In this document: positions 40,819 through 56,282 of the stretch, in pieces | Layout: every line of letters starts with the position of its first letter | Position numbering within the stretch: position 1 is the stretch's first letter | Assembly: GCF_003351785.1 (NCBI RefSeq) | Contig: NZ_CP031230.1 | Span: 3,138,501-3,202,500 of the forward strand | Length of the DNA: 64,000 nt | Reading direction: 5' to 3' | Origin: Sporosarcina sp. PTS2304 | GTDB lineage: Bacteria > Bacillota > Bacilli > Bacillales_A > Planococcaceae | The notes under the pieces: model-generated | Seen by the model: the letters and a program-made list of their open reading frames with translations, nothing else | What the model was told of the DNA's origin: nothing | Databases searched by the model: none | Made by a program: the position numbers and the translations under genes

Positions 40819-40843
40819 AAAGCACCTATGAGGTGCTTTTTTG
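40819..40843 (+). terminator. Intrinsic terminator of the Fic gene
   Basis: AAAGCACCT, loop ATG, AGGTGCTTT, then a T run. Confidence 0.9.
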
Positions 40844-40932
40844 CAACCAATAGTTGTGCTTCAATCGAGCCATTTTACGATATAACTTATTGTTAAATAT
40901 GGTGAAAAATTAGGAAAGGGGAAAGTTGAAAA

Positions 40933-41472
40933 ATGGATTGTTTCAGTAATGATACATATATAGTCTTGGATTTACCAAAGCATATTTCAGAAAAGGTAAA
41001 GATTATAAGAGAGAATTACAACTATCCTGATGCTTTACCCGCAGAAATCACACTTACTGGTTCAAGCGGAGTAGGTGTATTCTTAGCAGGCCAAGATCAA
41101 AGTCGTGTATTCGAAGAAGTAGACAAGATTGCTAATAAAACAAAACCAGTTAAGGTTTCTTTTTCCAACGTGTTAAACTTTCCGAACACAAATATCTTCT
41201 TTTTTACAATAAAAAATGAGGAGATCCTAAGGGAAATCCATCTAAAGATAAGTGATTCTCAAATTAACTTCAAAGAAAGCCCGTTTCCTTATAAACCTCA
41301 TTGTACTCTGTGTAATCTCGACACAATCCTGGAAGAAGAAAAGCAAGGACTATTAAGTATTAATCTTACAGATGAATTTACATTAGACACTTTATCTGTC
41401 TACTCACTTCAAAATAAAACAAATGAAGATGTAAAGGTAAGTTTACTTCATAGAGTGAAGTTATCAGGCTGA
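40933..41472 (+). CDS. 2H phosphoesterase (2'-5' RNA ligase-like) lacking the first His
   Basis: This 179-residue protein has the two-lobed layout of 2H phosphoesterases. The second motif is present (YKPHCTLC, near residue 121) but the first reads AEITLTG where HxT/S is expected, so one of the two catalytic histidines is replaced by Glu. It may be inactive or altered. GGAAAGGGG lies upstream of the ATG. Confidence 0.75.
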   Translation: MDCFSNDTYIVLDLPKHISEKVKIIRENYNYPDALPAEITLTGSSGVGVFLAGQDQSRVFEEVDKIANKTKPVKVSFSNVLNFPNTNIFFFTIKNEEILREIHLKISDSQINFKESPFPYKPHCTLCNLDTILEEEKQGLLSINLTDEFTLDTLSVYSLQNKTNEDVKVSLLHRVKLSG

Positions 41473-41526
41473 AAACTAAATTTGCTGTTCAAGATAAGAG
41501 CGCGATTCTGATATAGCATTCATCTA

Positions 41527-41715
41527 GTTGACCGGAGTGGAAACCAGCGACTCCTGTAGGATCAGTGAGAGCCGTAACGAAGAACGGCTTTTGCGAGTGA
41601 GGCGCAGCGAGAAGGAGCACATCTTTGCCTTTACAGGTCATCCAACGAAGCGAAGTGGATGGGTGTGGTGCTCCTCGCGCCTAACAGAACACGTCCGCCT
41701 AGTACGTAGATCAAC
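41527..41715 (+). repeat. Repeat family B, copy 1
   Basis: The copy starts GTTGACCGGAGTGGAAACC and ends GTAGATCAAC, with GCGACTCCTG and GGATCAG near the left end. It belongs to the GC-rich, palindrome-ended intergenic repeats found widely in Bacillaceae genomes. It carries an extra internal palindromic segment (GAGCACATC... to ...GTGCTCCTCGC). Open frames across it are not genes. Confidence 0.75.
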
Positions 41716-41766
41716 GAGTTCATTCTGTCTAACAATGGAACTACTCTATTGTAAAGGGGTGCAAAT

Positions 41767-42126
41767 GTGACATCTTACTATTTCATAGCATCAGACCAAA
41801 AATTAGGATGCGGAAATGCTTCACTTGAAATTTTAGAGACTGAGCCGTGGATCATTTCAGGATTTGATTATCCCATTCAAAGAGAAATTATGAATGGTGT
41901 AGAGAAAGAGTGGCAACTACGGGAATTGTTGCAATATATCCGTAATCACACCGCACCGTATGAAGCTTGTACTGTGCAAATAGCTCATTTAGTAAATTCA
42001 AATCACGAGGAACTACATGTGCAGAGAAAATCTAACTTATTGCTACATGAAATAAATACCCCAAAACAACTTATAGTACCAGAAGGACATCTGCTAACTA
42101 TTATTAAAGTACCCATTTCTTCGTAA
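41767..42126 (+). CDS. Hypothetical protein
   Basis: This 119-residue soluble protein begins MTSYYFIASDQKLGCGN. No family recognised. The GTG start follows AAAGGGGTG by 6 nt. It is followed at 42201 by the MepB-like gene. Confidence 0.65.
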   Translation: MTSYYFIASDQKLGCGNASLEILETEPWIISGFDYPIQREIMNGVEKEWQLRELLQYIRNHTAPYEACTVQIAHLVNSNHEELHVQRKSNLLLHEINTPKQLIVPEGHLLTIIKVPISS

Positions 42127-42200
42127 TTGCTTTGCTGCCAGACGAGTATGCAAATATAAAAGAGTAGATCATGTAAGAAGTAACGGATTGGAGTAGTTCA

Positions 42201-42710
42201 ATGAAAGATTTTCATCAAGCCCTATCCTATATAAATAAAATGATGTACGAACCGAATCATATGATAGTGCAGTCGATTCAAGAAGAAAAACAAAACGCTG
42301 CCTATGGGGCCGGCATATTTCAAATTGCGTCTACAACCATTCGATTCAGAGTAGCGAATGTCACGGCGACAAAAGTAGGGCAATTTGTAGCGTTTTGGGA
42401 GAAAGATGAACATGACAAAAATCAGCCCTATTCCTATGAACAAGCGGCTGACTTATTAGTCATTACTACGTTTGCAAGTGAAACGGAGTTCGGACAATTT
42501 ATTTTTCCAAAAGAGCTACTTCTCAAACAGAATATTTTGAGGTCTAGCTCCACAAAAGGGAAAATGGCTATGCGAGTGTATCCAGTTTGGGATCGACCGA
42601 CTAGTAAACAAGCGATGAACACACAAGAGTGGCAATTACCTTTTTTTGTTGATATGAGTCACTCACATAAAGTGCCCAAAGAAAAAATAAGGGAGCTGTA
42701 TTCTTTTTAG
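42201..42710 (+). CDS. MepB-family protein
   Basis: This 169-residue protein resembles MepB, encoded with the mepRA multidrug efflux genes in Staphylococcus aureus, including YGAGIFQIASTTIRFRVA near residue 33 and FGQFIFPKELLLK. No efflux pump or MepR homologue lies beside it. The biochemical role of MepB is not established. Confidence 0.82.
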   Translation: MKDFHQALSYINKMMYEPNHMIVQSIQEEKQNAAYGAGIFQIASTTIRFRVANVTATKVGQFVAFWEKDEHDKNQPYSYEQAADLLVITTFASETEFGQFIFPKELLLKQNILRSSSTKGKMAMRVYPVWDRPTSKQAMNTQEWQLPFFVDMSHSHKVPKEKIRELYSF

Positions 42711-42767
42711 TTCTTTGTGATAGATCACGCTATCACAGAGTGGAGTTAGGGAGAGGGGATGGATGTC

Positions 42768-42944
42768 GTGAAAAAAAGATTCAAATTCGCCCTGCTATTT
42801 TTTGTGCTGTTCACTATTTGGAAATGGTTTTCCACTTCGGAAATTCATTGGTTTGAAAATATAATGATGACTATTGGGGTTACACTAGTGTTTGCTTTTG
42901 TAGAGTGGGTTAGTAAACCATATGAATACAAAAAGAGAATATGA
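42768..42944 (+). CDS. Small two-helix membrane protein (paralogue of 13835-14017)
   Basis: This 58-residue protein shares KFALLFFVLFTIWKW and STSEIHWFENIMMTIG with the product at 13835. The GTG at 42768 is 9 nt after GAGGGG; ATG 42759 lies inside the spacing. Function unknown. Confidence 0.7.
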   Translation: MKKRFKFALLFFVLFTIWKWFSTSEIHWFENIMMTIGVTLVFAFVEWVSKPYEYKKRI

Positions 42945-43014
42945 CCTTAAAAAAGAGTCAAATGATGTAACGTACACAATGGTCTGCCGTCTACTAAATA
43001 AAAGGAGAGGTTTT

Positions 43015-43800
43015 ATGAAGAAAATATCCAGTATTCTATTTATAGGGCTCGTCTTAGCTGCTTGTACAGGGAAAGGCATATCGGACGGAGACAGTAGTGT
43101 AAACGTTCCAGCCATTTCATTGCCGACAAATACTTCTACTGCGGATATGGTAGGTTTGATCGTCTATAATGGGAAAATTTATACTGAAACGAATGTAGAA
43201 ATACGCGCGGAAGATGCAAAAGCGTTACGAGATGATATATTGGGCATAACGACAGGAACGATTGATGAATGGAGTAAACAAAAGGAATATGATAAAGAGC
43301 TCGCTTCCACTGTCGGAGAAATGGATGTCTATTCTGTGAAAGGGTATGACCGCGATTTTAGGATAATGACGTATGAAGAACAAGACGGAATCGCATATGC
43401 ACGGTTTTACGAACATCTTAACGGTATTACGGTACGTAGTGGGGAAGATATTTTTGGCAAGTTGCAGCTGGTGGGAAATGTAGTTTCGGCACGGTGGAGA
43501 ACGTTTAGTGAGCGAGAACGTGACATGGATCGCTATCATGAGATTGCAGATACAGCGACTGTGAATACGTTTGTGGAAGAATTGAACAATACGAAGCCGC
43601 TAGCTCGCGAACGACAGTCAGATCCATTGAATACGTCAAGAAACGACGAGGAATTCAGAGAACTGTCGTTACAATTGGCGGATGGTTCCTTCGTGACACT
43701 TAGTCTTCTGAAGGACGGATATATTTATTATAGTATGACAGATGTCTACTTTGAGATGAATCAACGGACGTTTTCAGAACTATGGAACCAACTGAAATGA
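43015..43800 (+). CDS. Lipoprotein of unknown function
   Basis: This 261-residue protein has a lipobox (LVLAAC, Cys about residue 17) and a charged, soluble mature region with MVGLIVYNGKIYTETNVEI, a pattern like the lipoprotein at 34100 (FDGVIYKTG). AAAGGAGAGG precedes the ATG. Codon use is less AT-rich than in its neighbours. Confidence 0.8.
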   Translation: MKKISSILFIGLVLAACTGKGISDGDSSVNVPAISLPTNTSTADMVGLIVYNGKIYTETNVEIRAEDAKALRDDILGITTGTIDEWSKQKEYDKELASTVGEMDVYSVKGYDRDFRIMTYEEQDGIAYARFYEHLNGITVRSGEDIFGKLQLVGNVVSARWRTFSERERDMDRYHEIADTATVNTFVEELNNTKPLARERQSDPLNTSRNDEEFRELSLQLADGSFVTLSLLKDGYIYYSMTDVYFEMNQRTFSELWNQLK

Positions 43801-43820
43801 ATAGACCTACGTGCGCTACG

Positions 43821-43854
43821 AATAATCGTCCTTTTCATGGGCGGTTATTTTTTT
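43821..43854 (+). terminator. Intrinsic terminator
   Basis: AATAATCGTCC pairs with GGGCGGTTATT (G-U pairs) and is followed by seven T. Confidence 0.85.
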
Positions 43855-43927
43855 GGAAAAAGTTAAGCTAAATGATGTAGTAGTTTGTCTAATACATAGT
43901 AGGCATTAACAGAAAGGAGGGATTCCG

Positions 43928-44088
43928 ATCATTGCATTAGTGAAAAAAGCTCAAAAGGGTAGTGATGACGCTTTTTTTGCAACAGGATTCTTCCTCCAGC
44001 ACGGGAAACTCCTCAACCTGAAGTTTTTGATGGTGCTTGGCAATCGGCTTATCGTATCGCACACTTCCGACAGTAAAGTACTAATAAT
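43928..44088 (+). pseudogene. Remnant of a sigma factor-like gene
   Basis: GAAAGGAGGG is followed by IALVKKAQKGSDDAF, a typical ECF sigma N-terminus, but the normal ATG is missing and the frame decays after about 16 codons. A second frame then reads FDGAWQSAYRIAHFRQ to TAA at 44088. The rest of 43855-44312 shows no gene. Confidence 0.4.
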
Positions 44089-44312
44089 TATGTGTTGATA
44101 CTTGATGTATTCAAGTGAATAAGCTAATAATTGAAGGATCAAACATGTCACTTTCTTTTTAGGGATTTGAGTGTCGTGTGGTAACCTCACTTTAATTCTA
44201 AATTTATGGGAGTGGCAAGTTTTTTTGCTTATAATGCATTACCTGCAATGAATGATTAGCTTATTATTATAGAAGTTTTGACAATACATATTTATAAATA
44301 GGAGAGATCTAT

Positions 44313-45530
44313 ATGAAGAATACTAGGCTACAAGAGAAGTTAGTGGAGATTGAAAAAGAATATAGAGAAACATTCCAAACTATTAGTGATCATTTGTTTC
44401 ATCACCCAGAAATTAGTGGAGAAGAATACAAATCGGCTGCGTATTTGGCTGAAGTAATGGAGTCTTTCGATTTTACGGTGACGTTCCCCTATCCGCATCT
44501 AAAAGAAATAGAGACTGCTTTTATAGCTGAATTTGGGACTGGGGAAGGACCTACTATCGCTTTTTTAGCAGAATATGATGCGTTGCCAGGATACAAAACG
44601 CCATCAGGAAATGGTCATGCATGTGGTCATAATTGGATCGCCTCGACTATGTGTGGATGTGCGATTGTTTTGTCAAAGTTACAAGAGCATTTTGAGGGGA
44701 AAATTGTAGTCATAGGTACACCAGCGGAAGAAACATATGGCGGCAAAATTAACATGTTGAAAGAAGGAGCTTTTGAGGGCGTTGATATTGTGTTTCAAGC
44801 TCATTTAGCAAATGAAACCGTTTTGGATTCAGCTGCATTGGCGATGACCGATTATGAATTTGAGTTCAAAGGTAAAGCCGCACATGCCGCCTCCTATCCC
44901 GAGAACGGAATTAATGCACTGGATGCGGTGCAACTAACTTTTATGGGGGTTAATGCGTTACGCCAACATGTAAGACAAGATGTTCGAATCCATGGCATTG
45001 TAAAAGAAGGTGGCACAGCAACGAATATTACACCCGATAGAGGGGTTTGTCATATGACAGTGCGGGCGCAAGATCGAAAGTATTTACAACATGTAAGTTC
45101 GCGCGTGATAGACTGTGGGAAAGGAGCAGCGCTAATGACGGGGGCTGAATTTACATATCGCCAACTCGGTAATTCCTTTGATGATTTACTAAATATCCCG
45201 TCTTTAATAGAATTGACAAAAAAGAATTTGATAGAAGTAGGCATTACAAACTTTACTTCTCAACAGGATGCTCCGACTCCAGGCTCAACAGACATTGGAA
45301 ATGTGAGTTATCTATGTCCTACGTTATATATTGAAGTAGACTTAGAGGCAGACAAACCTTTTTATGTACATGAAGAAGAAGCTTTGAATTATGTAAATTC
45401 TCCATACGCTTATGATAAAATGTCCCAAGTCATTCGTGCGTTCTCATCTAGTGCACTTGAACTATTTTTAGAACCGAAACTTCTAGCGACGATTAAAGAC
45501 GAACATCAAAACATTTTGCTAAAAAAGTAA
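44313..45530 (+). CDS. M20-family amidohydrolase (p-aminobenzoyl-glutamate hydrolase-like)
   Basis: This 405-residue metalloenzyme has the M20 ligand motifs: EYDALPG near residue 87, GHACGHN near residue 102, TPAEETYGGK near residue 145 and AHAASYPENG near residue 190. The set fits the AbgB/amidohydrolase branch that cleaves N-acyl or peptide-like amides in the cytoplasm. AGGAGAG precedes the ATG. It stands alone; the substrate is unknown. Confidence 0.9.
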   Translation: MKNTRLQEKLVEIEKEYRETFQTISDHLFHHPEISGEEYKSAAYLAEVMESFDFTVTFPYPHLKEIETAFIAEFGTGEGPTIAFLAEYDALPGYKTPSGNGHACGHNWIASTMCGCAIVLSKLQEHFEGKIVVIGTPAEETYGGKINMLKEGAFEGVDIVFQAHLANETVLDSAALAMTDYEFEFKGKAAHAASYPENGINALDAVQLTFMGVNALRQHVRQDVRIHGIVKEGGTATNITPDRGVCHMTVRAQDRKYLQHVSSRVIDCGKGAALMTGAEFTYRQLGNSFDDLLNIPSLIELTKKNLIEVGITNFTSQQDAPTPGSTDIGNVSYLCPTLYIEVDLEADKPFYVHEEEALNYVNSPYAYDKMSQVIRAFSSSALELFLEPKLLATIKDEHQNILLKK

Positions 45531-45644
45531 ACTATAAAGTGTCTCGTCACGTAGGTACATTAGTGATATAATTTAAAAAACAGTATGGCGAGTGATATAA
45601 ATGGAAAATTTTATCTCAACCAAATATATTTTTTTAAAAATAAC

Positions 45645-45675
45645 AACCTTGACTGAATCTAGTCAAGGTTTTTTG
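45645..45675 (+). terminator. Intrinsic terminator
   Basis: AACCTTGACT, 6-nt loop, AGTCAAGGTT, then a T run, 115 nt after the M20 gene. Confidence 0.88.
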
Positions 45676-45744
45676 TTGCCTTAAGGCAATTTTGAATAAT
45701 AGTTAAATTTTTACTAAACCCAATGGATAAGGAGCTGTATTTTT

Positions 45745-46629
45745 TTGGATGAATAAAAGTATAATGATCTAAAATTAGGTGAAAAAGGTGCTTATTTAAG
45801 TATAGTCGCTTATCTATGTTTATCTATTTTAAAATTAATTATAGGCTATGTAAGTGACTCTGAAGCACTGAAGGCAGATGGATTAAATAATACAACGGAT
45901 ATTATTGCATCGATCGCTGTTCTGATCGGGCTAAAATTGTCGAGAAAACCAGCAGATAAAAATCATAAATATGGTCATTGGAAAAGTGAAACTATCGCAT
46001 CACTGGTTGCTTCTTTTATTATGATGGCGGTCGGTATACAAGTACTATTTAGTACAATCATATCCTTTGCAGGTGGAGGAAAAGAGTCACCAGATATAAT
46101 GGCGGGATATGTTGGTATTTTTTCGTTTGTCGTCATGTATATTGTCTATCGATACAATAAAAAATTAGCAATAAAAATCAATAGTCAAGCTCTTATGGCA
46201 GCAGCTAAAGACAATATTTCAGATGCGTGGGTCAGTATAGGAACAGCTATAGGAATATTCGGTTCTCAGTTACATATGCCGTGGATTGACACATTCACTG
46301 CATTAATAGTAGGATTTCTTATTTGTAAAACGGCATGGGATATTTTTAGAGAAGCCTCTCATGATCTAAGTGACGATTTTGATGAGAAGCAAATTGAAGT
46401 TTACAAAAAAACGATTCAATCCATACATGAAGTACAGCAGATTAAAGAAATTAAAGGTAGAAATTATGGAAATAATGTAGTAGTCGATATTGTAATTTTA
46501 GTACAGCCAAATCTAAGTCTTGAAGAAGCACATGACATTACTACCTTAGTGGAAAACGCATTGAAAGAAAAAGATGGCGTGTATGATGTTCATGTTCATG
46601 TAGAGCCAAATTGCAAACAGAGTTACTAA
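45745..46629 (+). pseudogene. Cation diffusion facilitator with a stop at codon 4
   Basis: A TTG start 10 nt after AAGGAG encodes MDE, then TAA (45754-45756), and then an unbroken CDF transporter of about 290 residues: KYNDLKLGEKGAYLS, ADGLNNTTD with the family's metal site, HKYGHWKSE and DNISDAW in the helices, and a C-terminal cytoplasmic domain ending DVHVHVEPNCKQ. No usable ATG/GTG/TTG occurs between the stop and TTG 45937, which would delete the first two helices. It is either a recent nonsense mutant or uses an unusual start. Confidence 0.8.
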
Positions 46630-46769
46630 ATGTAGGTTATACTATACGTGAAAATCTTTTATTTTTACTTTACTAAAAGTAATATTGTATAAATAGTTAA
46701 CAAGTGAAGTAATCGGAAACAATGTAATCAAATCACAAGGCATGTAGTACTTTAGTGGAGGGAAAGATA

Positions 46770-46964
46770 ATGAAAAAAACAAGAGCAATTTTTATTGGTG
46801 ATGTTAGATATGATCAGTGTCCAGTTTTTGAATTGAATAACGAAACGGATTACTTTGAAATGATAATTGACAAAGAAGTTAGATATGAAAAAGTAGTAGT
46901 TGAAGAAGATGATGATTTTTTGATATTTGAAATTGAAGAGGATATTGCAAATTTGATCGAGTAA
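46770..46964 (+). CDS. Hypothetical small acidic protein
   Basis: This 64-residue protein, MKKTRAIFIGDVRYDQC..., is rich in Glu and Asp toward the C-terminus. No family recognised. GGAGGG is 7-8 nt upstream of the ATG. An element C copy follows its stop. Confidence 0.65.
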   Translation: MKKTRAIFIGDVRYDQCPVFELNNETDYFEMIIDKEVRYEKVVVEEDDDFLIFEIEEDIANLIE

Positions 46965-46974
46965 TTATGCAAGT

Positions 46975-47023
46975 AGGCGCGATTCTTAGTAAAAGGATTT
47001 GCGCTATTTCAGTAATAGGGCCA
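46975..47023 (+). repeat. Intergenic element C copy
   Basis: GGCGCGATTCTTAGTAAAAG, then TTGCGC, then CAGTAATAGGGCCATG. It contains all three arms of the element (5', middle, 3'). Confidence 0.7.
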
Positions 47024-47066
47024 TGTTATGGAAATGTGAAAACATATTTAATCATTGGGGGAAACA

Positions 47067-47381
47067 ATGAGAAGAACTTTAGAATTATTCATTATGTTTT
47101 TTACATTACTTCTTGCTTCCTGTGGAGGGCCTTTCACATCAACTACTTCGATGTTGACTGTGATTGAAAAAGGTCATTCAAGTGACTACAAAGAATTTTG
47201 GATCAAGGCATATGACCCGAGCAATCACAACAAAGGAGAAGCATTTAGGATAGTAGTACAAGAAGAGATGGTATGGAATCTTATTGAAGAAGACAGAGAG
47301 TATTTTTCCTCGTATGCAAAAGAAGGAGACAAACCTTGGATTTTAGAGAAAACCGAACATTCAGCGGTTGAAAGAGAATAA
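47067..47381 (+). CDS. Small lipoprotein
   Basis: This 104-residue protein has a lipobox (LLLASC, Cys about residue 19) and a compact mature domain (YKEFWIKAYDPSNHN). Function unknown. GGGGG lies just upstream of the ATG. Its stop lies just before the ribosome site of the AAA ATPase gene. Confidence 0.72.
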   Translation: MRRTLELFIMFFTLLLASCGGPFTSTTSMLTVIEKGHSSDYKEFWIKAYDPSNHNKGEAFRIVVQEEMVWNLIEEDREYFSSYAKEGDKPWILEKTEHSAVERE

Positions 47382-47394
47382 AGGAGGGGTTGTA

Positions 47395-48246
47395 ATTTAT
47401 TTACATGACTTTTCATTTCCAAGTGATGATATGGAATTCGACTTTTTTATGAAGATAAAACGAACATGCTATGACTCGTTTTACCCATTTAAAATTTTAT
47501 CGAAAAATAGCTTTGAAACGATTGTTTTTGAGCCAGTGACGATTTTGTATGGGGGAAATGGTTCTGGAAAATCTACAGCATTACATGTCATAGCAGAAAA
47601 AACAGGAGTCAAACGGGATTCTATTTATAATAAATCTAATTTCTATCCTGATTATGTCAATATGTGTGGAATGCAACTTAAAGAAGAGATTCCCGAAAAC
47701 AGCAGGATTATTACTAGTGATGACGTGTTTGACTATATGTTGAATATCCGGAACCTCAATGAGGGAATAGACCAAAAAAGAGAAGAACTTTTTGAGGAAT
47801 ATTTGGATGCAAAATATTCCCATTTTCAGATGAGATGTATGGAGGATTACGAGCAGTTAAAAAAAGTTAATATCGCTAGAAGTCAAACACAGTCCCGTTT
47901 TGTAAGAAATGAATTAATGGATAATGTGAGGGAATATTCGAATGGGGAAAGTGCATTCCTATATTTCACTGAAAAGATTGGTGAGAATGGACTGTATATT
48001 TTGGATGAGCCGGAAAACAGCCTTTCTCCAAAGCGCCAAGTGGAATTGGTGGACTTTATCGAACAATCTGCCCGTTTTTTCGGATGTCAGTTCATCATAT
48101 CAACACATTCTCCATTTCTACTATCCATGAACGGTGCAAAAATTTATAATCTTGACGAAAAACCCGTTAAAGTGAGACGCTGGACGGAATTAGAAAATAT
48201 CCGTACATACTACGATTTTTTCAAAAGACATGAAAACAAGTTTTGA
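47395..48246 (+). CDS. AAA-family ATPase (SMC/OLD-like), probable ATT start
   Basis: This 283-residue ATPase has Walker A YGGNGSGKST near residue 52, an ABC-like signature YSNGESAFLYF near residue 182, Walker B LYILDEPENSLS near residue 200 and the H-loop ISTHSPF. The architecture fits small overcoming-lysogenization/SMC-type ATPases. The best start is ATT at 47395: AAAGGAGGGG sits 5-8 nt upstream, and no ATG, GTG or TTG lies near it. The alternatives are a TTG at 47368 without a ribosome site or internal ATGs. Confidence 0.8.
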   Translation: MYLHDFSFPSDDMEFDFFMKIKRTCYDSFYPFKILSKNSFETIVFEPVTILYGGNGSGKSTALHVIAEKTGVKRDSIYNKSNFYPDYVNMCGMQLKEEIPENSRIITSDDVFDYMLNIRNLNEGIDQKREELFEEYLDAKYSHFQMRCMEDYEQLKKVNIARSQTQSRFVRNELMDNVREYSNGESAFLYFTEKIGENGLYILDEPENSLSPKRQVELVDFIEQSARFFGCQFIISTHSPFLLSMNGAKIYNLDEKPVKVRRWTELENIRTYYDFFKRHENKF

Positions 48247-48416
48247 AGAACATTGAATCGTACCTCAAGAGAGATCTGGTGCATAAAAACTATTCAACTA
48301 AAGGGAATTTGTTAAAGAGTGCCAGTATGTCATACGACGTAGAAGAAATTCTGAATCGAGTGTAAGTTGTGTAGCGCACAGCACTGCTCACTAATTTGAT
48401 TGTTAGGAGGATCGCT

Positions 48417-48890
48417 ATGAAACGATTGGTTAATTTTTCTCTTTCAGCTTTATTGGTAATGTTAATTGTAAGTGGATGTAACACAAAAAGTGGAGAAGAG
48501 AGTATTTTTACATACAAAGATTCGTATGTGGGTGATGCTAGCGCAGTAGGGAATAGTGCAAGTCAGTTGCGAGGTGCTGAACACTATAAAGGCTTTGAAC
48601 TTAAAACGACCGAAGAGCCGTATGGTATTATTTTGAACTATGATTGGTCGGACTCAGAACTGAATTATAAAAAAACAGCTATTTATAACGCCACTTTTTT
48701 ATTTGCATTAATTAAAAACGCTGACTGGATAACGTTTAATTTTACTAATCAAGAGTACAAAATAACAAGAGAAAATCTTCAAGATTGGTATGGGGAAAAT
48801 CTCAGCGATTTAGAAAATGAAAATGAAACAGAAAAAATTGCACAAAAATATTTGGAAGATGAAAGTAAAATAAATCAGTTATTTAATTGA
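48417..48890 (+). CDS. DUF4825-like lipoprotein
   Basis: This 157-residue protein has a lipobox (LIVSGC, Cys about residue 20). The mature part contains FTYKDSYVGDASAVGN, the pattern of DUF4825 domains also seen in BlaR1-linked proteins. AGGAGG is 6-7 nt upstream of the ATG. Function unknown. Confidence 0.75.
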   Translation: MKRLVNFSLSALLVMLIVSGCNTKSGEESIFTYKDSYVGDASAVGNSASQLRGAEHYKGFELKTTEEPYGIILNYDWSDSELNYKKTAIYNATFLFALIKNADWITFNFTNQEYKITRENLQDWYGENLSDLENENETEKIAQKYLEDESKINQLFN

Positions 48891-48940
48891 GCGATGCGAT
48901 TGCGAAAAAGCGATTTGCGTACGTTCTGCAATCGGGCCAG
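48890..48940 (+). repeat. Intergenic element C copy
   Basis: CGATTGC pairs with GCAATCG across a loop containing CGATTTGCGTACG, then GGGCCAG. It overlaps the stop of the lipoprotein gene. Confidence 0.6.
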
Positions 48941-49133
48941 TAGAATTAGTGTACTCTTTAGGATTCTCCCGAGAGAAACCGGACGCTTTCCTGAGGGCAC
49001 GCGGCGGACTCGCCAGAAGTGCGTTGGCGATTACGCCTGTCGCGCTGATCCTCCAGGAGTCGCCGGTTCTTCCGGGAGAATCCTTGAGTTTGTGTCGGGA
49101 AGTCAGTTGGTGTTTGTCCAGAAGTTGGAGTAG
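48940..49133 (+). repeat. Repeat family A copy carrying an inverted family B copy
   Basis: The flanks match the short copy at 15003-15096. Here the hairpin arms AGGATTCTCCCG (48960-48971) and CGGGAGAATCCT (49073-49084) are about 100 nt apart. Between them lies a family B repeat in reverse orientation: the complement reads ACCGGCGACTCCTGGAGGA at one end and GGAAAGCGTCCGG at the other. The whole unit can form one long hairpin. Confidence 0.75.
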
Positions 49134-49358
49134 GGGTAAGTGACTTCTCCTGTAAAGTGTGGATGAAGCTGTAGATTCTTTGACTGAATGCATATAGAGT
49201 CATTTCTTTTTTCGTTCAATTTATCGAGACAGTCAAAGTAGCCAAAAATACTTCGCTGCTTTCTAACTTCAAAACCGGACCATTGTATCAGACAAGTCTA
49301 CTCGGCTTTCACTACTTGCAGAGAGCTATCAAACTGTCTTATGTACACTAAGTCGGGC

Positions 49359-49479
49359 TGGAGCTTCCAGACGATCGACTCCGGGAGGATCAGGGCGACA
49401 GGCGTAACCCGCAGCGCTTGACGGTCCGCCGCGTCCCCTCCGGAAAGCGTATCGTCTGGAAGCGGAAGCCGCAACGATA
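49359..49479 (+). repeat. Repeat family B, copy 3
   Basis: TTCCAGACGAT on the left and ATCGTCTGGAA on the right are inverted repeats; GCGACTCC-like and GGAGGATCAG motifs near the left match the other B copies. From 48891 to 49678 I see only repeats. Confidence 0.7.
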
Positions 49480-49678
49480 TCCAAGTCAGCGTCACAATCT
49501 CAGAAAAAACAAAAATTACTTATTTCGTGTTCTTCTGTTAACGGGCGCATTAACAGAACAAGGTTATGCGAGAATCAGGGCTATTATCCGGAATAAGACC
49601 TTTTAAATAATCCGGGCAATTAGTTTAACAAGAAAACCGAGATATATTATTTGGATTTTTTAATTAGGGAGTGTTCAT

Positions 49679-50437
49679 GTGGGTGTTTGGGGAGCGGCAA
49701 TATTATCCGATGATATTGCTGAAGATGTCAGCTTTAAATATAAGGACTTATTGGGAGAAAATTATTCGAGTGAAAAAGCAAGTAAACGAGTAATAGAAGA
49801 ATTTCAAAATGATTTAGATGGTGAAGAAATTACTGCCTTTTGGTTGTCATTCGCTTTAATACAATGGAAATTAGGAAGACTTCAAGAGGAAGTTAAAAAT
49901 AAAGCAATTGAAATTATTGATAGTGGTGTGGATCTTGAACGTTGGGAAGAAGATCCTAAACTAATGAAGAAACGTGAAGCTGTTCTTTTGAAACTAAAAG
50001 AACAATTACATTCCCCGCAACCACAAGCTAAAAGAGTTCCAAAGAGGTTTGTAACGAATACATTTTTAAAAGCTGGTGATGCAATTAGCTATGAATTAGT
50101 TTCAAGGGATTTTATTATTCTTAAGGTCATTGGCATTATTGAACAAGGGACTGGAGACAGATATCCACTTTTCGAAATATGTGACTGGAAAGGGAAAGTA
50201 ATTCCTTCAAAAGAACAAATTAATGAATTAGAATTAAAAAAATGGACGTGGGAAAATGGTAATCAAGAGTTAAACGCATTAGCTATCTTTCCAGCTGGTA
50301 AAAAAGATGACCCTATAAAAAGAGTACAAGTGGTAGCAGAAGGTGTAAGAATCGTATTGGATATGGAAGAATCCTTCGTCGCATTAACTTGGAAAGCATT
50401 AGATGATAATTTAAAGGAGTTTTACTCATTCGAATAA
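49679..50437 (+). CDS. Hypothetical protein with a DUF4259-like N-terminus
   Basis: This 252-residue soluble protein begins MGVWGAAILSDDIAEDV, the opening typical of DUF4259-type proteins. Its C-terminal half (from about residue 120) is beta-rich and unassigned. GGGAGTG lies 5-6 nt upstream of the GTG start. Function unknown; such proteins are often found among immunity genes. Confidence 0.72.
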   Translation: MGVWGAAILSDDIAEDVSFKYKDLLGENYSSEKASKRVIEEFQNDLDGEEITAFWLSFALIQWKLGRLQEEVKNKAIEIIDSGVDLERWEEDPKLMKKREAVLLKLKEQLHSPQPQAKRVPKRFVTNTFLKAGDAISYELVSRDFIILKVIGIIEQGTGDRYPLFEICDWKGKVIPSKEQINELELKKWTWENGNQELNALAIFPAGKKDDPIKRVQVVAEGVRIVLDMEESFVALTWKALDDNLKEFYSFE

Positions 50438-50540
50438 TATCTCTTAAATGAGCATGATTATAATTGGAAAGTCTTGTGTAAGAAAAGAACTGTTATGCCA
50501 GCGTTTAATGATCTAAAGAAGAATTAGTGGGAGTGTTACT

Positions 50541-50888
50541 ATGAAATGTAACTTTTGCAAAAAAGAAGTTACTTTTAATTTAAAAGTAGAAGGCGATGTT
50601 GGCGCAGACGCAATTTGGTGTGATGAGTGTTACTGTAATTTAGATATTTATGATATGCCGATTTCAAATAGTTTGAAAAAACAACTTACAACTTGGACAC
50701 AGCAGTACGGTGAATGGATGGATTGGAGCAAAGATATGTTGTGTTCTAATGGAGTTCAAATGGAAGAAGAACATAATAAAATAGGTGAATCACTTACTGT
50801 AAAAGTTCGTAATGAGCTCGGAGATGAATATAAAGTCAGATTTTCACCTTCTTCATCTACAAGAATGTATGCTAACCGCGATTCTTAA
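50541..50888 (+). CDS. Small zinc-ribbon protein
   Basis: This 115-residue protein has CNFC at residues 3-6 and CDEC near residue 27, suggesting one zinc-ribbon. The rest is hydrophilic. Function unknown. GGGAGTG precedes the ATG. Downstream to 51103 I see no convincing gene. Confidence 0.65.
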   Translation: MKCNFCKKEVTFNLKVEGDVGADAIWCDECYCNLDIYDMPISNSLKKQLTTWTQQYGEWMDWSKDMLCSNGVQMEEEHNKIGESLTVKVRNELGDEYKVRFSPSSSTRMYANRDS

Positions 50889-51103
50889 TGAAAAACCCCT
50901 TACAATTTACTACATTACTACTCATGCTATTCTAGTATTTGAGAAAAGGAATGATTATTCAGTGACTAGCTATCAGCAGTTTTACTCACGCATTTTTTCG
51001 ATTCTCTACGAGTTAGCATCTTAAACTTTTTTAATTTAGCTTTTTTACATGAGGTTAACAACAATTTATAAGGACAAATTTTGATATGGAAGGAAAATAA
51101 TAT

Positions 51104-51493
51104 ATGACTACTTTCAGTTTTCTTATACTGTCTGAAAAAAGCTCGTTGATTGAGAAAGATAGATATAATAAACATTCATTTGTTAAAAAAGAAGGAAATT
51201 TTTATATTTTCGCCCGTCAACAAACAGCGGGTATTGTTGAAGGCAAAAGTATAAGCAGAGAATATATTGATTTCATTCGTTCGATATCGAGTGAAATGGA
51301 ATCACCCATATATACTTTAGTGAAAGAACTTAAGAACAAAGAAGGAGAAAATGATTTTTCTATTAAAAAATATATTGATTCTAATGGAATTATAGATAGT
51401 GAGAAGGTTTTAGTTTTAAATAAAGATACCTTAATATCTTATAATAAATTATATAAATTTCCTTTTATCACAAGTGAAATTACACGATTTTGA
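51104..51493 (+). CDS. Hypothetical protein
   Basis: This 129-residue soluble protein is rich in Lys, Ser and Ile. No family recognised. AAGGA is about 11 nt upstream of the ATG, a moderate site. A degenerate element C copy follows near 51525. Confidence 0.6.
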   Translation: MTTFSFLILSEKSSLIEKDRYNKHSFVKKEGNFYIFARQQTAGIVEGKSISREYIDFIRSISSEMESPIYTLVKELKNKEGENDFSIKKYIDSNGIIDSEKVLVLNKDTLISYNKLYKFPFITSEITRF

Positions 51494-51672
51494 TATAAAA
51501 ATTATAGCTGTGCTTATATATGCAATAATCGAGCGCGATTTTTTGGTAACAGCATATTTTCAAACGTGCCACCTTCCGAATAAAAACTTTTAAAAACATT
51601 AAGTGACCGAACTATCTTACGATACATGAACACTGGTATAATAGAGGTAACAATAAATGAGGGGTGTTATTT

Positions 51673-51858
51673 ATGAATGAAAATTCACGAACAGAACGCC
51701 AAAAGCAAGTAGAATTTGCAGTTGGAATGGCTGCAATTGACGGTGGAAAGCCAAGCGTATTTACAAAGAATCTTTTAAATCAATATGAAGATGGTCAAGT
51801 ATCATCCAGTCAATTGAAGCAAGCCATTGTTGAAAAATATACAAAGGCTTCAGAGTGA
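51673..51858 (+). CDS. VbhA-like antitoxin
   Basis: This 61-residue helical protein, MNENSRTERQKQVEFAVGMA..., matches the antitoxin VbhA family that blocks Fic toxins with an inhibitory helix. The adjacent downstream gene is a Fic toxin with a nonsense codon, so the antitoxin now lacks an active partner. GAGGGGTG lies 5-6 nt upstream of the ATG. Confidence 0.82.
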   Translation: MNENSRTERQKQVEFAVGMAAIDGGKPSVFTKNLLNQYEDGQVSSSQLKQAIVEKYTKASE

Positions 51859-51861
51859 TTT

Positions 51862-52581
51862 ATGGATCCTTATGTTTATCCTAATACAAACATTTTAATC
51901 AATAAATTAGATATTCGAGATGAAGAGCAATTAATTGACGTTGAAGCACAGTTGTTAATTGCTGGGATTATAGATATTTCTTCTATCTCCCAAAAGATTG
52001 ATTTCCAAAAATATGAAAGTCTTCAGTTGATTCATCACTTTATTTTTCAGGAACTATATTCATGGGCTGGCGAATTTCGCACAGTCAATATTTCTAAGAG
52101 TGAACGGGTTTTAAATGGATTATCTATCTCCTATAGCGATAAAGATCATATTATATCTGATTTGAAAACTATTTTCAGTTGGTCTGAATCTAAAAAATAG
52201 AGTTATTCTAATCCTAATCTTGTAAAAGATTTTTCGGCTTTTATGATAAAGCTCTGGCGTGTTCATCCTTACCGTGAAGGAAATACAAGAACAGTTTCAA
52301 TTTTCATGAAGCTTTTTGCTGAAGCAAGTAGGCTAGACTTCAATGCTCAATTACTTTCACAACATACAGGATACTTACGAAATGCACTAGTTCTAGCCAC
52401 AGTAGAAGAAGCTCCAGAACCACATTATTTATTGAATATGATATCTGACGCACTAGGTGTAGTTGATTTCAATAAATTCATGCCTGATGATGAAGCTTCT
52501 AGTAAATATCAAGTGATTGGCAATTACGATGTTTCTAAAGATGAAGAAAAACCGTTCGAAATTGATCTTGATGATGAATAA
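51862..52581 (+). pseudogene. Fic toxin (VbhT-like) broken by an in-frame TAG
   Basis: The frame begins 3 nt after the antitoxin stop. It encodes ELYSWAGEFRTVNISKSE near residue 56, meets TAG at codon 113 (52198-52200), and continues in the same frame through HPYREGNTRTVSIFMK (Fic motif, near residue 135) to TAA 52581. The Fic motif has GNTR in place of the usual GNGR. The catalytic half lies after the stop, so the product should be inactive. Confidence 0.88.
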
Positions 52582-52622
52582 CTTTTTTTCAAATCAATTC
52601 AGTAGGCTCTAAGTATTCATAT

Positions 52623-52660
52623 AAAAAATGCAAGAGTGAAAATTCACTTTTGCATTTTTT
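52623..52660 (+). terminator. Intrinsic terminator of the toxin-antitoxin pair
   Basis: AAAATGCAAGAGTGAA pairs with TTCACTTTTGCATTTT, a near-perfect 16-bp stem, followed by T. Confidence 0.9.
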
Positions 52661-52704
52661 ATAACCACTTTGTTTTCTTGTTGCTCAATTTCAAGCACTG
52701 TAGT

Positions 52705-52800
52705 TTGATTGGGAAATCTAATATTGTTGAAATCAATCAAGGTGAACTTGTCGTTCTTATTTTGAAAATTGGAAGCCGCGGTGATATGTATAAAAAGTAA
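52705..52800 (+). pseudogene. C-terminal remnant of a RelE/ParE-type toxin
   Basis: The frame reads VEINQGELVVLILKIGSRGDMYKK then TAA, in two parts: the strand segment VEINQGELVVLILKIG and the tail SRGDMYKK. This matches the usual end of RelE/ParE toxins (YEI..GELVVLV.KIGHR.DVY). No N-terminal part or antitoxin remains. Confidence 0.6.
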
Positions 52801-52840
52801 ACGAACGTCTGCTGTATCTAAAGAAGGCGTTCGTTTATTG
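52799..52840 (+). terminator. Intrinsic terminator after the toxin remnant
   Basis: AAACGAACG pairs with CGTTCGTTT, followed by ATT. Confidence 0.7.
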
Positions 52841-52930
52841 TAGTAATTAGATTATCGAGGGTTTTATTAAATCAAAAGAAATGTTACACGAACAAACGGG
52901 GCGATTTAATTGAATAAATCGGAGGATATA

Positions 52931-53125
52931 ATGAGCACTAAAACCTTTGTCTTGTTATTAGTCGTTTTAGGAATTAATACTTTGAGGTATGGAACTTATC
53001 TTTTAGAGGGTTCTACAAGTATCTATTATTGGATTATGTTTATCTTGAATGTACTAGCCGTAATTTATGTTCTCATCTTAAAATTAAATAAAAGCAAAAC
53101 TGAAATTAATTCAAGAAGAATCTAA
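52931..53125 (+). CDS. Small two-helix membrane protein
   Basis: This 64-residue protein has two hydrophobic helices and a basic tail. GGAGG is 5-6 nt upstream of ATG 52931. Function unknown. Confidence 0.65.
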   Translation: MSTKTFVLLLVVLGINTLRYGTYLLEGSTSIYYWIMFILNVLAVIYVLILKLNKSKTEINSRRI

Positions 53126-53139
53126 AATACTTTAACAAA

Positions 53140-53188
53140 CGGGAGCAATTCTGGAATAAAGATTTGCGCTCTTTCAACAATAGGGCCA
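53140..53188 (+). repeat. Intergenic element C copy
   Basis: GGGAGCAATTCTGGAATAAA, GATTTGCGCTC, CAACAATAGGGCC: close to the consensus of the family. Confidence 0.7.
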
Positions 53189-53237
53189 CTTGTATGAAAA
53201 TAATACTTGTCTGTAATATACAAGGAGGGTGTTCGCT

Positions 53238-53426
53238 ATGAAAAGAGGAAGTATCGGAATGGCTATATTTACAGGGGTATTCGTTGGTATTATGGTCTTT
53301 ATCTCTACGTACTTAGTGCCTGAAGCGAGTTCTATCACTTCGATCGTGATTGCTGTTTTAGCAGCATTTATAGGTGGATTGATTGGGAATAAATTATTTC
53401 CACGTAGAGAAGAACAAACGCGATAA
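53238..53426 (+). CDS. Small two-helix membrane protein
   Basis: This 62-residue protein has two glycine-rich helices (GMAIFTGVFVGIMVFIS and VIAVLAAFIGGLIG) and a basic end. AAGGAGGG lies upstream of ATG 53238. Function unknown. Confidence 0.68.
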   Translation: MKRGSIGMAIFTGVFVGIMVFISTYLVPEASSITSIVIAVLAAFIGGLIGNKLFPRREEQTR

Positions 53427-53475
53427 ACATCTGTAGTCGTGCCAGATTGATGAGAATAGTTAAGGGGATTGGGAT

Positions 53476-53664
53476 ATGTTAAAAAAGGTTGTTAAGTATT
53501 GGTTAACCACTTGTTTAATTTTCTTAGTACTTATAACCGTTACGCAATGGTTATTTGATCCAGAGATTAGATGGGTTCAGAATATTAAAGTTGCTATTAT
53601 TGCATATTTATTTCTTGTAGTTATTGATTTGATTATCAAATCATTAGCAAAAGCTAGAAAATAA
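53476..53664 (+). CDS. Small two-helix membrane protein, distant paralogue of 13835 and 42768
   Basis: This 62-residue protein has PEIRWVQNIKVAI in the same position as STSEIxWxENIM of the two paralogues. AAGGGGATTGGG lies upstream of the ATG. Function unknown. Confidence 0.65.
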   Translation: MLKKVVKYWLTTCLIFLVLITVTQWLFDPEIRWVQNIKVAIIAYLFLVVIDLIIKSLAKARK

Positions 53665-53758
53665 ATGTTTGGCTGTTAAACTTTCGGGCGCATTCACGGA
53701 ATAAAAACGCGTCCCACTATTATTTTTCCGCACAGATTATATAAACGGAGGTATAAAA

Positions 53759-53845
53759 ATGTGGATGTTTTTGGTGGCACTAGTCATTTCGTTAGGAGTG
53801 GCATTTGGATTTTTTGATACTAAAAAGAAAAAAAGTAAATGGTAA
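53759..53845 (+). CDS. 28-residue membrane peptide
   Basis: ATG preceded at 7 nt by GGAGG encodes one helix (MFLVALVISLGVAFGFF) and a strongly basic tail (KKKKSKW). The optimal ribosome site and its place between element C copies like its neighbours support a real gene. Function unknown. Confidence 0.6.
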   Translation: MWMFLVALVISLGVAFGFFDTKKKKSKW

Positions 53846-53852
53846 TGTAACT

Positions 53853-53896
53853 AATGGGCGCGTTTGTAGGACGACACTGTACTAGAATCGGGCCAT
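53853..53896 (+). repeat. Intergenic element C copy
   Basis: GGGCGCGTTTGTAGGACGAC, then CTAGAATCGGGCCATG. Confidence 0.65.
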
Positions 53897-53938
53897 GATT
53901 ATCCAAGAAAAACTATGAAGCTTTCAGGGGGATAATGT

Positions 53939-54328
53939 ATGAAAAGAATTGGGATTATCTTGAGTATAGTTATAGTTATTGCAGCTGTTTTTATATTTGT
54001 AAATAAATCATATTATCCATCCTTGCCAGTTGATAGCCTATCCGCAAGAGAAACAATCGAAAAACTAAATAAGTCTGATGAAAAGATAGTAGAGATTGCA
54101 AAAGATGATAAATCTATTTGGTACATCACAAAAAATGAAGAAGACGGCATTTTAACAGTTGATGAAAATATTAAAAAAATGATTAGTACGAAGGGTTGGG
54201 AGTTTAAAGATAAAATGGGTTCTGGTCTTTTCTTTGAAAAAGATGATGAACAGTTAACCGTTACAACTCAAATGTGGACTAAAAAATATGTTCTTATTCA
54301 GGTACAAAATCAATTTAAAGAAGCTTAA
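53939..54328 (+). CDS. Membrane-anchored protein of unknown function
   Basis: This 129-residue protein has an N-terminal signal anchor (residues 4-22) and an extracytoplasmic alpha/beta domain. No family recognised. GGGGG is 7 nt upstream of the ATG. Confidence 0.68.
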   Translation: MKRIGIILSIVIVIAAVFIFVNKSYYPSLPVDSLSARETIEKLNKSDEKIVEIAKDDKSIWYITKNEEDGILTVDENIKKMISTKGWEFKDKMGSGLFFEKDDEQLTVTTQMWTKKYVLIQVQNQFKEA

Positions 54329-54341
54329 AACATTAAGCAAT

Positions 54342-54390
54342 CAGGGCGCGATTGTCGTACAACGTAGTGCTGCAATCGGGCCAGATTGAT
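54342..54390 (+). repeat. Intergenic element C, best-preserved copy
   Basis: GGCGCGATTG (54345-54354) pairs with CAATCGGGCC (54373-54382) in a 10-bp stem with one mismatch around an 18-nt loop. The copy at 55541-55583 is almost identical. No T run follows, so it is not a standard intrinsic terminator. About 20 related copies occur between genes from 31 to 56.3 kb. Confidence 0.85.
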
Positions 54391-54446
54391 TAAAAAGGGC
54401 TATGGTTAAAGTGAAATACCAAGTAAATAATTTTGGGGGTGTATAA

Positions 54447-54992
54447 GTGAAAAGACGCTATATTACATTGCTGGTTATTTTTATTTTATTAATAGCTGCT
54501 ATATATTTATGGAATGAAAAAAATGAGGAATCAAAGACCCGCAATACAATTTATCTTACACAACTTTCGAAGGACGTTGAATTTCTAACAACTACTGTAA
54601 TGCTTAATTCGATTCCTGACACTTTTGAATTGTATAGTGATGAATTTACAGAGGAAGAATTAAGTCTTTTTAAAAATTCCCTACAGATTATAAATAGGGA
54701 ATTAAGTGTTGCATCAGTAAATATAGAAAAGATTGAAGATATTGATGATAGAGATAATACCCTATCGGAATCAATAGATGAACTTCGTCAATTGTTTTCT
54801 GAAATTCAAGAAGATGCAGGGAAAATAGATAAAGATGTGTTTATTAAAATAAGCGAAATTGCCCCAGATTATTCAAGAAAATTAAATGATCTTTTTTACA
54901 AACCATCGGCAGAAAACATCTTTAAAAAAGGTCCTGATGTGTTAGAAGAAATGAATCAGGAAATTGAAGAACTGATAAAGCAGGATAAATAG
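54447..54992 (+). CDS. Membrane-anchored helical protein
   Basis: This 181-residue protein has an N-terminal anchor helix (residues 6-22) and a long, acidic, helical extracytoplasmic region that may form a coiled coil. The GTG start follows GGGGGTG. Function unknown. A terminator follows. Confidence 0.68.
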   Translation: MKRRYITLLVIFILLIAAIYLWNEKNEESKTRNTIYLTQLSKDVEFLTTTVMLNSIPDTFELYSDEFTEEELSLFKNSLQIINRELSVASVNIEKIEDIDDRDNTLSESIDELRQLFSEIQEDAGKIDKDVFIKISEIAPDYSRKLNDLFYKPSAENIFKKGPDVLEEMNQEIEELIKQDK

Positions 54993-55021
54993 AATTAATC
55001 AATTGGTAGTAATAGTTCAAT

Positions 55022-55057
55022 AATCGGGAGAGTTTCTTTAGAACCTCCCGATTTTTC
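55022..55057 (+). terminator. Intrinsic terminator
   Basis: AATCGGGAG pairs with CTCCCGATT and is followed by TTTC. Confidence 0.8.
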
Positions 55058-55069
55058 TTATTCCAGAAA

Positions 55070-55120
55070 AGGGTGCGATTCTTGTATAAGAGATCTACAC
55101 CCTATTCAATAATGAGACCA
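55070..55120 (+). repeat. Intergenic element C copy
   Basis: GGGTG (55071-55075) pairs with CACCC (55098-55102); CAATAATGAGACCAG follows. The compensated stem bases differ from other copies but still pair. Confidence 0.65.
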
Positions 55121-55157
55121 GATTATTAGAAACAATTTAGGGTTAGGAGGAGACACA

Positions 55158-55349
55158 ATGGACAAATTTCATCGGTCTAGCTTACTGTTAATTATTATTG
55201 TTTCTATAACGGTATTTATATCTACGTATTGGCTAGATTTAGAGATTGGATATGGAATTATACTTTTGATCATAGCTGTTGGCTATACTATTTATCTAAA
55301 TTTTAAAGCACTTAGAAATGAACAAATGAAAGATAAGCAACTTCGATAA
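55158..55349 (+). CDS. Small two-helix membrane protein
   Basis: This 63-residue protein has two helices and a basic C-terminus. TAGGAGGAG lies about 5-6 nt upstream of the ATG. Function unknown. Confidence 0.66.
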   Translation: MDKFHRSSLLLIIIVSITVFISTYWLDLEIGYGIILLIIAVGYTIYLNFKALRNEQMKDKQLR

Positions 55350-55390
55350 TCGGGCGCGATTGCGTTACATGATTTATTCGTAGTAACTTA

Positions 55391-55518
55391 GTTGATCGGA
55401 GCGGAAACCGGCGACTCTGGGAGGATCAGCGGGACAGGTGAAACACCCAGCGAGCGAAGCGAGGGGTGTGGTTCACCGCCCGCCCTCCAGAAAGCGTCCG
55501 GTTGCAGCGCAGATCAAC
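55391..55518 (+). repeat. Repeat family B, copy 4
   Basis: The copy begins GTTGATCGGAGCGGAAACC and ends GCGCAGATCAAC, with an inverted terminal match (GTTGATC/GATCAAC). The centre contains paired AACACCCAGCGAGC and GGGGTGTGGTT. It has split an element C copy: GGGCGCGATT lies just before it at 55353. Confidence 0.78.
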
Positions 55519-55540
55519 GGTTTCAAACCACTATCTAGCT

Positions 55541-55583
55541 ATCGGGCGCGATTGTCGTACAACGTAGTGCTACAATAGGGCCA
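55541..55583 (+). repeat. Intergenic element C copy, near-identical to 54342-54390
   Basis: This shares the arms GGCGCGATTG and CAATAGGGCC and the whole loop with the copy 1.2 kb upstream, which implies recent duplication or strong conservation. Confidence 0.75.
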
Positions 55584-55643
55584 TATCGTTGTATAAACTA
55601 TGATAATTTAATCTAAGAATTTATAACATTTAGGAGGAATCAT

Positions 55644-55859
55644 TTGAAGAACACGAAATTAAGGGTTGCGTGGATTGTTCCAAATATTTTTATTTACCTA
55701 ATGTTTATAGGTGCTTTGATATTTGTGACAATAAATATAAAAGGGATTCAAGAGATTGGTATGACATCACTTTGGATATTTAATTTATTTGTGCTTTTCG
55801 TAGGTTCAGTATTAGGTAGCCTCCGTATCAAGCATTGGATTAAAAATGGAAAAATTTAA
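55644..55859 (+). CDS. Small two-helix membrane protein
   Basis: This 71-residue protein has two helices and a basic end. The TTG start is 6-7 nt after AGGAGG. Function unknown. Confidence 0.66.
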   Translation: MKNTKLRVAWIVPNIFIYLMFIGALIFVTINIKGIQEIGMTSLWIFNLFVLFVGSVLGSLRIKHWIKNGKI

Positions 55860-55947
55860 GAAGGATTATTCAGTTATAGGGCGCGATTTCAGTGTGAATG
55901 ATGTGTCCAGATCACTTAAATAAGCGGAAATTGGAGGTCGGACAGAT

Positions 55948-56193
55948 ATGAAACGAGAGGGAATTGTTAAGTGGTTTAAAGAAGAAAAGGGTTATGGTCG
56001 TATTATGCTTGACGGTGAGGATGGAAATCTCGTTTTTGTTCATTTTAGCTCGATTTCACCTAATGAAGAAGTATTTCCGAACGAATTCAGATATCTTAAG
56101 CAAGGTCAGAAAGTGTCTTTTGATTTAATTGAAAACCCGAATTCTCCTGACCAAAAGCAAGTAGCAGAAAATGTAATCATTATTACGGAGTAA
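55948..56193 (+). CDS. Cold-shock-domain protein, divergent
   Basis: This 81-residue protein has a cold shock domain with KGYGRIML in place of the RNP1 motif KGYGFI and a good RNP2 VFVHFSSI, plus an insertion before the final strand. It should bind RNA or DNA less typically than the Csp at 3123. TGGAGG lies upstream of the ATG. It is part of the small-gene tract. Confidence 0.82.
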   Translation: MKREGIVKWFKEEKGYGRIMLDGEDGNLVFVHFSSISPNEEVFPNEFRYLKQGQKVSFDLIENPNSPDQKQVAENVIIITE

Positions 56194-56208
56194 AAATTTC
56201 TTCACAGC

Positions 56209-56260
56209 AAACGGACGCTGATTGCGTAAAAAGAATCGTGTTCATACCGCAATTGGCCCA
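56209..56260 (+). repeat. Intergenic element C copy
   Basis: GGACGCTGATTGCG, then CCGCAATTGGCCC; ATTGCG pairs with CGCAAT. Confidence 0.55.
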
Positions 56261-56282
56261 TATTGTGAAATGAGGTTAAAAG

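Follow-up and report, generated by a model that had tools for sequence, protein, structure and literature searches.

Paired Xer-type recombination sites as the probable boundaries of integron-like gene cassettes in Sporosarcina

In Sporosarcina sp. PTS2304 a short repeat, here called Element C, is found as a degenerate copy in many intergenic gaps between ~30 and 56 kb of the window (the whole 64,000-nucleotide stretch of DNA that was analysed, from contig NZ_CP031230.1), just 3′ of a stop codon and in the orientation of the gene. The original prediction described it as a three-armed element whose arms allow mutually exclusive hairpins, and the locus raises the question of whether such a repeat is used as RNA or as DNA. 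Comparison of its copies within and between genomes leads us to propose that Element C is very probably the boundary marker of an integron-analogous gene-cassette system with an Xer-like recombinase of its own.

Core sites and their arrangement in arrays

Logos built from end-aligned copies resolved Element C into two core sites of the tyrosine-recombinase type, L and then R, in direct orientation. The L site reads TTNTTCAACAATC-GGGNGC-GATTGTTGAATAA, and the R site carries the L-site arms around the centre GGGCCA. In both, 13-bp inverted arms surround a 6-nt centre, i.e., the two recombinase arms and 6-bp spacer of a dif-type core, and each site is a full palindrome. The 5′ arm of the original prediction corresponds to the L centre plus the L right arm, the 3′ arm to the R left arm plus the R centre, and the middle arm sits between L and R. 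The outer arms of L and R were conserved as well, though they are irrelevant to the hairpin; arm identity between unrelated copies was only ~50%. L and R lie 34-35 or 41-45 bp apart, with preferred spacings of 34/35 bp (short copies) and 42-44 bp (long copies). Helical phasing as an account of the two spacings was dropped, since the classes differ by ~8 bp and not by 10.5. An Rfam search of the window gave no family match above the gathering score at Element C; the sole match in the window was a cspA thermoregulator RNA at 3082-3553 on the reverse strand. The copies, single sites and cassettes of the window that are referred to below are the following:

14867..14933, forward strand: outlying element (L 14875, R 14910)
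30114..56273, forward strand: cassette array of co-oriented, mostly small genes between L/R sites, several of them half-conserved (lone L or R)
32569..32642, forward strand: long element (L 32577, R 32619)
34521..34594, forward strand: long element; L centre GGGTGC 34534-34539, perfect 8-bp hairpin arms 34534-34541/34557-34564, R centre 34576-34581
46962..47036, forward strand: long element (L 46970, R 47013)
53128..53201, forward strand: long element (L 53136, R 53178)
53843..53908, forward strand: short element (L 53851, R 53885)
54331..54396, forward strand: short element; degenerate L (centre GGGCGC 54344-54349; CAATCA for CAATC) plus R (centre GGGCCA 54378-54383)
55058..55133, forward strand: long element; L centre GGGTGC 55071-55076 (PWM score 34.4), middle-arm CACCC hairpin, degenerate R centre AGACCA 55115-55120
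55339..55370, forward strand: lone L site, centre GGGCGC 55352-55357, which opens an ORF-less L-to-L cassette
55352..55544, forward strand: GC-rich ORF-less mobile cassette between two L sites, found again beside other elements both in this genome and in further Sporosarcina genomes (window 55538 versus L087:13350 and L068:14142)
55531..55596, forward strand: short element; L centre GGGCGC 55544-55549 (PWM score 34.4), R centre GGGCCA 55578-55583
56207..56273, forward strand: long element with degenerate L (R 56250); final array copy in the window

All significant copies in the array are on the forward strand, and the window holds many L and R sites that stand alone or are half decayed. With a sequence model of Element C, 26 copies were found at E<0.4 across the 3.5-Mb genome, every one of them within 3.049-3.266 Mb (217 kb) and again on the forward strand; copies were present in 21 of 24 other Sporosarcina genomes, and the 16 other genera sampled with this model gave one marginal match. 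Profile iteration over 608 kb yielded 201 copies, with a single orientation per locus in every case except L081. This locus carries 4-5 copies on each strand, and possibly represents two arrays meeting.

The intervals between sites have the character of gene cassettes. The R-to-L intervals, 176 in number and 439 bp long at the median, had their longest ORF (at least 50 aa) in sense in 143 cases and in antisense in 24; with one strand per array, this gives co-oriented cassettes each bounded by a recombination site, as in integrons. The median distance from the stop codon to L was 18 bp, and that from R to the start codon 52 bp, which leaves little room for a cassette promoter; promoter-like matches were not above those in shuffled sequence. 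Most cassette products are uncharacterised; the recognised ones include Fic, MepB-like, 2′-5′ RNA ligase-like, DUF4825, AAA ATPase and OLD/PtuA-like proteins.

Several other repeats were seen in the region. GC-rich elements of ~150-270 bp at 55352-55544 and 41493-41760 lie within or between L sites, behave as ORF-less cassettes and are related to others in the genome, and near-identical right ends of the GC-rich element recur in other Sporosarcina genomes. A tandem repeat with a 21/42-nt unit (28000-28480) is contained in the ORF at 27948-28502, at the array edge. Just past the array end, at 57515-57684, tandem 45-nt repeats are followed by 8-nt AAGAACTT repeats.

Exchange of flanks and a linked recombinase

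Flank comparison revealed that some copies share only the upstream gene and others only the downstream gene. One example is the lone L at 55339..55370, whose downstream sequence is common to L134:3342 and L136:9075 while the upstreams differ. In L pairs sharing one flank, positions 3-4 agreed with the upstream partner, and from position 8 on the agreement was with the downstream partner, which places the exchange at the 5′ side of the centre. R-anchored pairs switched at the centre edge too, with less resolution because the R centre is invariant. When each copy was used only once, giving 55 independent L pairs and 22 R pairs, the 2-lnL interval covered the centre in 35 and 13 of them, respectively. 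The inferred crossover positions scatter by ~10 bp about the centre because the recombinants are old. From these comparisons of loci, mostly of different species, we infer site-specific exchange in the L and R centres; the non-identical centres at position 8 among the recombinants suggest tolerance of heterology or single-strand exchange.

Two empty/filled junctions were also found, L080 versus L065 (1,489 bp) and own-genome L093 versus L065 (1,217 bp), and in both the difference lies between L sites. The locus pair L210/L211 was discarded as a junction case, its indel being unrelated to the sites. Cassettes shared by the window genome and G024 are 93-96% identical whereas xerD is 74% identical, which is sequence evidence for horizontal transfer of cassettes between species.

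Repeats are natural substrates for recombination, and flanks could be exchanged by ordinary homologous recombination between passive miniature repeats of the REP or MITE kind, perhaps mini L-recombinase-R units. A miniature derivative is conceivable, L and R being found on both sides of the recombinase gene as well as of the short spacer. Such an origin is nevertheless unlikely. Crossovers concentrate at the 6-nt centre despite the low arm identity between unrelated copies; instead of being dispersed, the copies occur in clusters, at about one per gene and in one orientation; and the cassettes themselves, beyond the repeats, are common to different species.

Four tyrosine recombinases are encoded in the genome. 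The candidate enzyme (~281 aa; 3,094,994-3,095,840) maps outside the window, and ~73 kb separate it from the main array, though other copies of Element C are 1.6 kb away. It is Xer-like, and in the alignment R, K, H/R, H and Y stand where they should; the second H is absent in L127, a plasmid-type member of the family. A weak tyrosine recombinase encoded at 3,206,811 (L090) was discounted as a candidate, because it is distant from the family and has a very long tree branch. All 11 Sporosarcina orthologues of the candidate lie within ~5 kb of a copy, and three of the 11 are broken. At these three loci (L129, L130 and L131, in G010, G013 and G023) copies persist nearby, a situation that resembles integrase-less integron clusters. 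About half of the Sporosarcina genomes with copies are without an intact close orthologue; in those, another recombinase could act or the arrays could be relics.

A scan of genomes for the recombinase alone returned 80 loci in ~30 genera. In 75 loci chosen only by recombinase homology, 396 sites scored at least 18 with the PWMs, a threshold that in 2 Mb of random sequence is reached at most once or twice per strand per model. The orientation of the sites relative to the recombinase strand depended on the clade: in clade 1, 285 were on the same strand and 7 on the opposite one, and in clade 2, 96 were opposite and 8 the same. Roughly half of the clade-1 loci have an L-type site, of the same kind as the array L sites, 134-209 bp upstream of the recombinase, and in many an R site is found 52-136 bp downstream of the gene. 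In the tree these recombinases form one clade apart from XerC/XerD (support for clade 2, 100/100) that does not follow host taxonomy. Of the 400 Bacilli sampled, 26 (in 18 of 146 genera) have a close homologue, and such homologues are also present on plasmids.

The resemblance to integrons is extensive. As in these, compact co-oriented genes, mostly of unknown function, alternate with short imperfect palindromes, the array encodes a tyrosine recombinase, and there are ORF-less cassettes, integrase-less clusters and interspecies cassette transfer. Folded together, L and R could even imitate the hairpin of an attC site, the folded bottom strand of which is recombined by the IntI integrase. A classical integron is quite unlikely, however. 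Against the IntI model TIGR02249 the recombinase scored 94.6 bits, below both the cut-off of 265 and the 149.6 bits of the host XerD. The boundary consists of two full palindromic core sites in direct orientation (L, GGGNGC; R, GGGCCA), and crossovers were inferred in both, whereas attC uses one. Furthermore, pairing of L with R, as in an attC-like fold, did not exceed the shuffled level in short copies, and in long copies the signal was marginal (see below). Complete integrons are extremely rare in Bacilli and nearly absent from Bacillota (PMC9024848). The system functions like an integron and, by the tests run, is not a member of that class.

Pairing between the arms

Pairing had been pointed out in three copies. 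The copy at 34531 does show perfect pairing of the 5′ arm (GGGTGCAA, 34534-34541) with the middle arm (TTGCACCC, 34557-34564), with a fold of -19.6 kcal/mol (z = -2.7), and at 55070 the arms still match (GGGTG at 55071 with CACCC; z = -3.0). In the copy at 54342, pairing of the 5′ arm (GGCGCGATTG, 54345-54354) with the 3′ arm (CAATCGGGCC, 54373-54382) was confirmed at 9 of 10 positions, the remaining one being a G.G mismatch; this copy folds at -27.6 kcal/mol (z = -6.2). Not all copies fold strongly: five of the 10 that were folded had a z of -1.6 or milder.

RNAalifold predicted no common pair on 12 mixed copies because the short and long forms differ, and covariation was therefore tested per spacing class, after near-identical copies had been dropped and against shuffles that leave relatedness in. 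At a spacing of 42 (n = 51), the 5′-middle hairpin was paired in 77.4% of cells versus 72.6±1.1% after shuffling, with 37 compensatory cells versus 19.2±3.6, and none of 500 shuffles reached either value; spacings 43 and 44 also supported this hairpin. In short copies (the 54342 type; spacing 34-35, n = 87) the 5′-middle hairpin did not covary. Pairing of the 5′ with the 3′ arm, i.e., of L with R, showed no covariation in short copies (at spacing 35, 56.3% observed versus 58.4% shuffled) and a marginal one in long copies. The arms within a site did not covary either, a pattern expected where half-sites bind a protein and become reassorted. When every pair of columns was scanned singly for covariation, the signals were only weak.

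These results divide the original prediction. The paired changes, taken there as a sign of selection for structure, have that meaning for the 5′-middle hairpin of the long copies, and not for the short copies or for the 5′-3′ pairing. The three-armed element with mutually exclusive hairpins as a selected switch is not supported: between the 5′ and 3′ arms there is no covariation, and both represent the one palindromic recombinase site. Two copies of such a site pair in the 54342 manner as a matter of course. What holds is that the repeat is structured and under selection, and that a function at the DNA level was worth considering.

It had also been stated correctly that no T run follows in the named copies, which are thus not classical terminators. 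A TTTT was present 3′ of the hairpin in 14 of 83 long Sporosarcina copies, versus 12 of 34 in other genera, so that in Sporosarcina the GC-rich hairpin is seldom joined to the T run of an intrinsic terminator. Promoter and terminator scans of the region revealed no excess. At two loci from other genera (L175:6080 and L198:13012) a hairpin adjoining L has a T run behind it and resembles an intrinsic terminator; there, a single site may work in recombination and also end the transcript.

A transcribed three-armed RNA at gene 3′ ends, switching hairpins to control transcript ending or decay, would account for the position of the copies behind stop codons and their gene orientation, for the compensatory changes in the long copies and for the T runs in some. 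We regard it as very unlikely. The 5′-3′ pairing does not covary, the short copies are devoid of covariation, the outer arms of L and R are conserved with no part in the hairpin, and the copies are confined to arrays and swap flanks exactly at the site. In long copies the 5′-middle hairpin probably has a secondary role as a terminator-like or transcript 3′-end structure, sometimes accompanied by a T run. In those copies the two functions, recombination site and transcript hairpin, may overlap.

Relation to known systems and a model for cassette exchange

The pdif modules of Acinetobacter plasmids are likewise genes flanked by Xer-type sites with a 6-bp spacer in which mismatch is tolerated; their orientation alternates from site to site, and recombination at them is ascribed to the host XerC/XerD (PMC13141974). 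The sites described here are paired as L plus R, mostly chromosomal and linked to a dedicated recombinase. It is hardly likely at all that host XerC/XerD act on L and R as on pdif modules: the layout is alike (arms of ~11-13 bp and a 6-bp centre) and arrays persist in genomes without the dedicated recombinase, but the L/R arms are unlike published pdif arms, the sites of each array are co-oriented (L081 excepted) and not alternating, the XerC and XerD genes lie far from the array, and it is the dedicated recombinase that tracks site position and orientation.

Two further systems were compared. Plasmid-borne homologues beside hsdS in Ligilactobacillus, annotated as XerA-like, are ~35% identical to the recombinase studied here. 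In the shuffling of hsdS by recombinases of the XerA-like kind, of which PsrA of Streptococcus pneumoniae is one, segments of hsdS that lie between inverted repeats are flipped (PMC7096588), whereas the direct repeats of Element C bound many unrelated genes. By their description, the Bacillus stem-loop repeats bcr1 and Bhal-1 are similarly intergenic, ~70-170 bp long and foldable, and the passages considered mention no cassette arrangement or recombinase (PMC2267715). No earlier description of a system such as this one was found in the literature, with preprints and most subscription papers outside the scope of the search, and it is apparently undescribed.

Taken together, the arrangement of the sites, the exchange of flanks and the linked recombinase fit the following model, in which Element C would mark the boundary of a cassette. 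The dedicated Xer-like recombinase would bind the L and R arms and pair L with L and R with R, either in the array or on a circle. Strand exchange would take place at the 5′ edge of the 6-nt centre, and would excise, insert or reorder the gene or ORF-less segment between the sites. The outcome would be an array of compact co-oriented cassettes, in which recombination of L with R would be prevented by the difference between their centres. We infer that this recombinase is the enzyme, that it acts on duplex DNA and that the system is active now. A duplex substrate appears favoured over an attC-like folded strand because L and R are full palindromes, both seem to be used, and L-R pairing lacks covariation.

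Tyrosine-recombinase cassette shuffling is in itself already known, and integrons are the textbook example of a device that stores and swaps genes. We consider it reasonably probable that the system described here is a second, independently evolved integron-equivalent capture platform, native to Bacillales and active today, with an Xer-family recombinase, paired L/R sites, interspecies exchange and clade-specific orientation. It would be a counterpart to integrons in many Bacillota genera, one that integron software is expected to miss because the recombinase falls outside the IntI model and the site is built differently. Since the arrays hold mostly uncharacterised small genes, Fic and OLD/PtuA-like ones among them, functions in adaptation or defence may be stored there. 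With this system it also becomes testable how a shuffler of cassettes arises from an Xer-type recombinase, and whether cassette shuffling depends on folded single strands.
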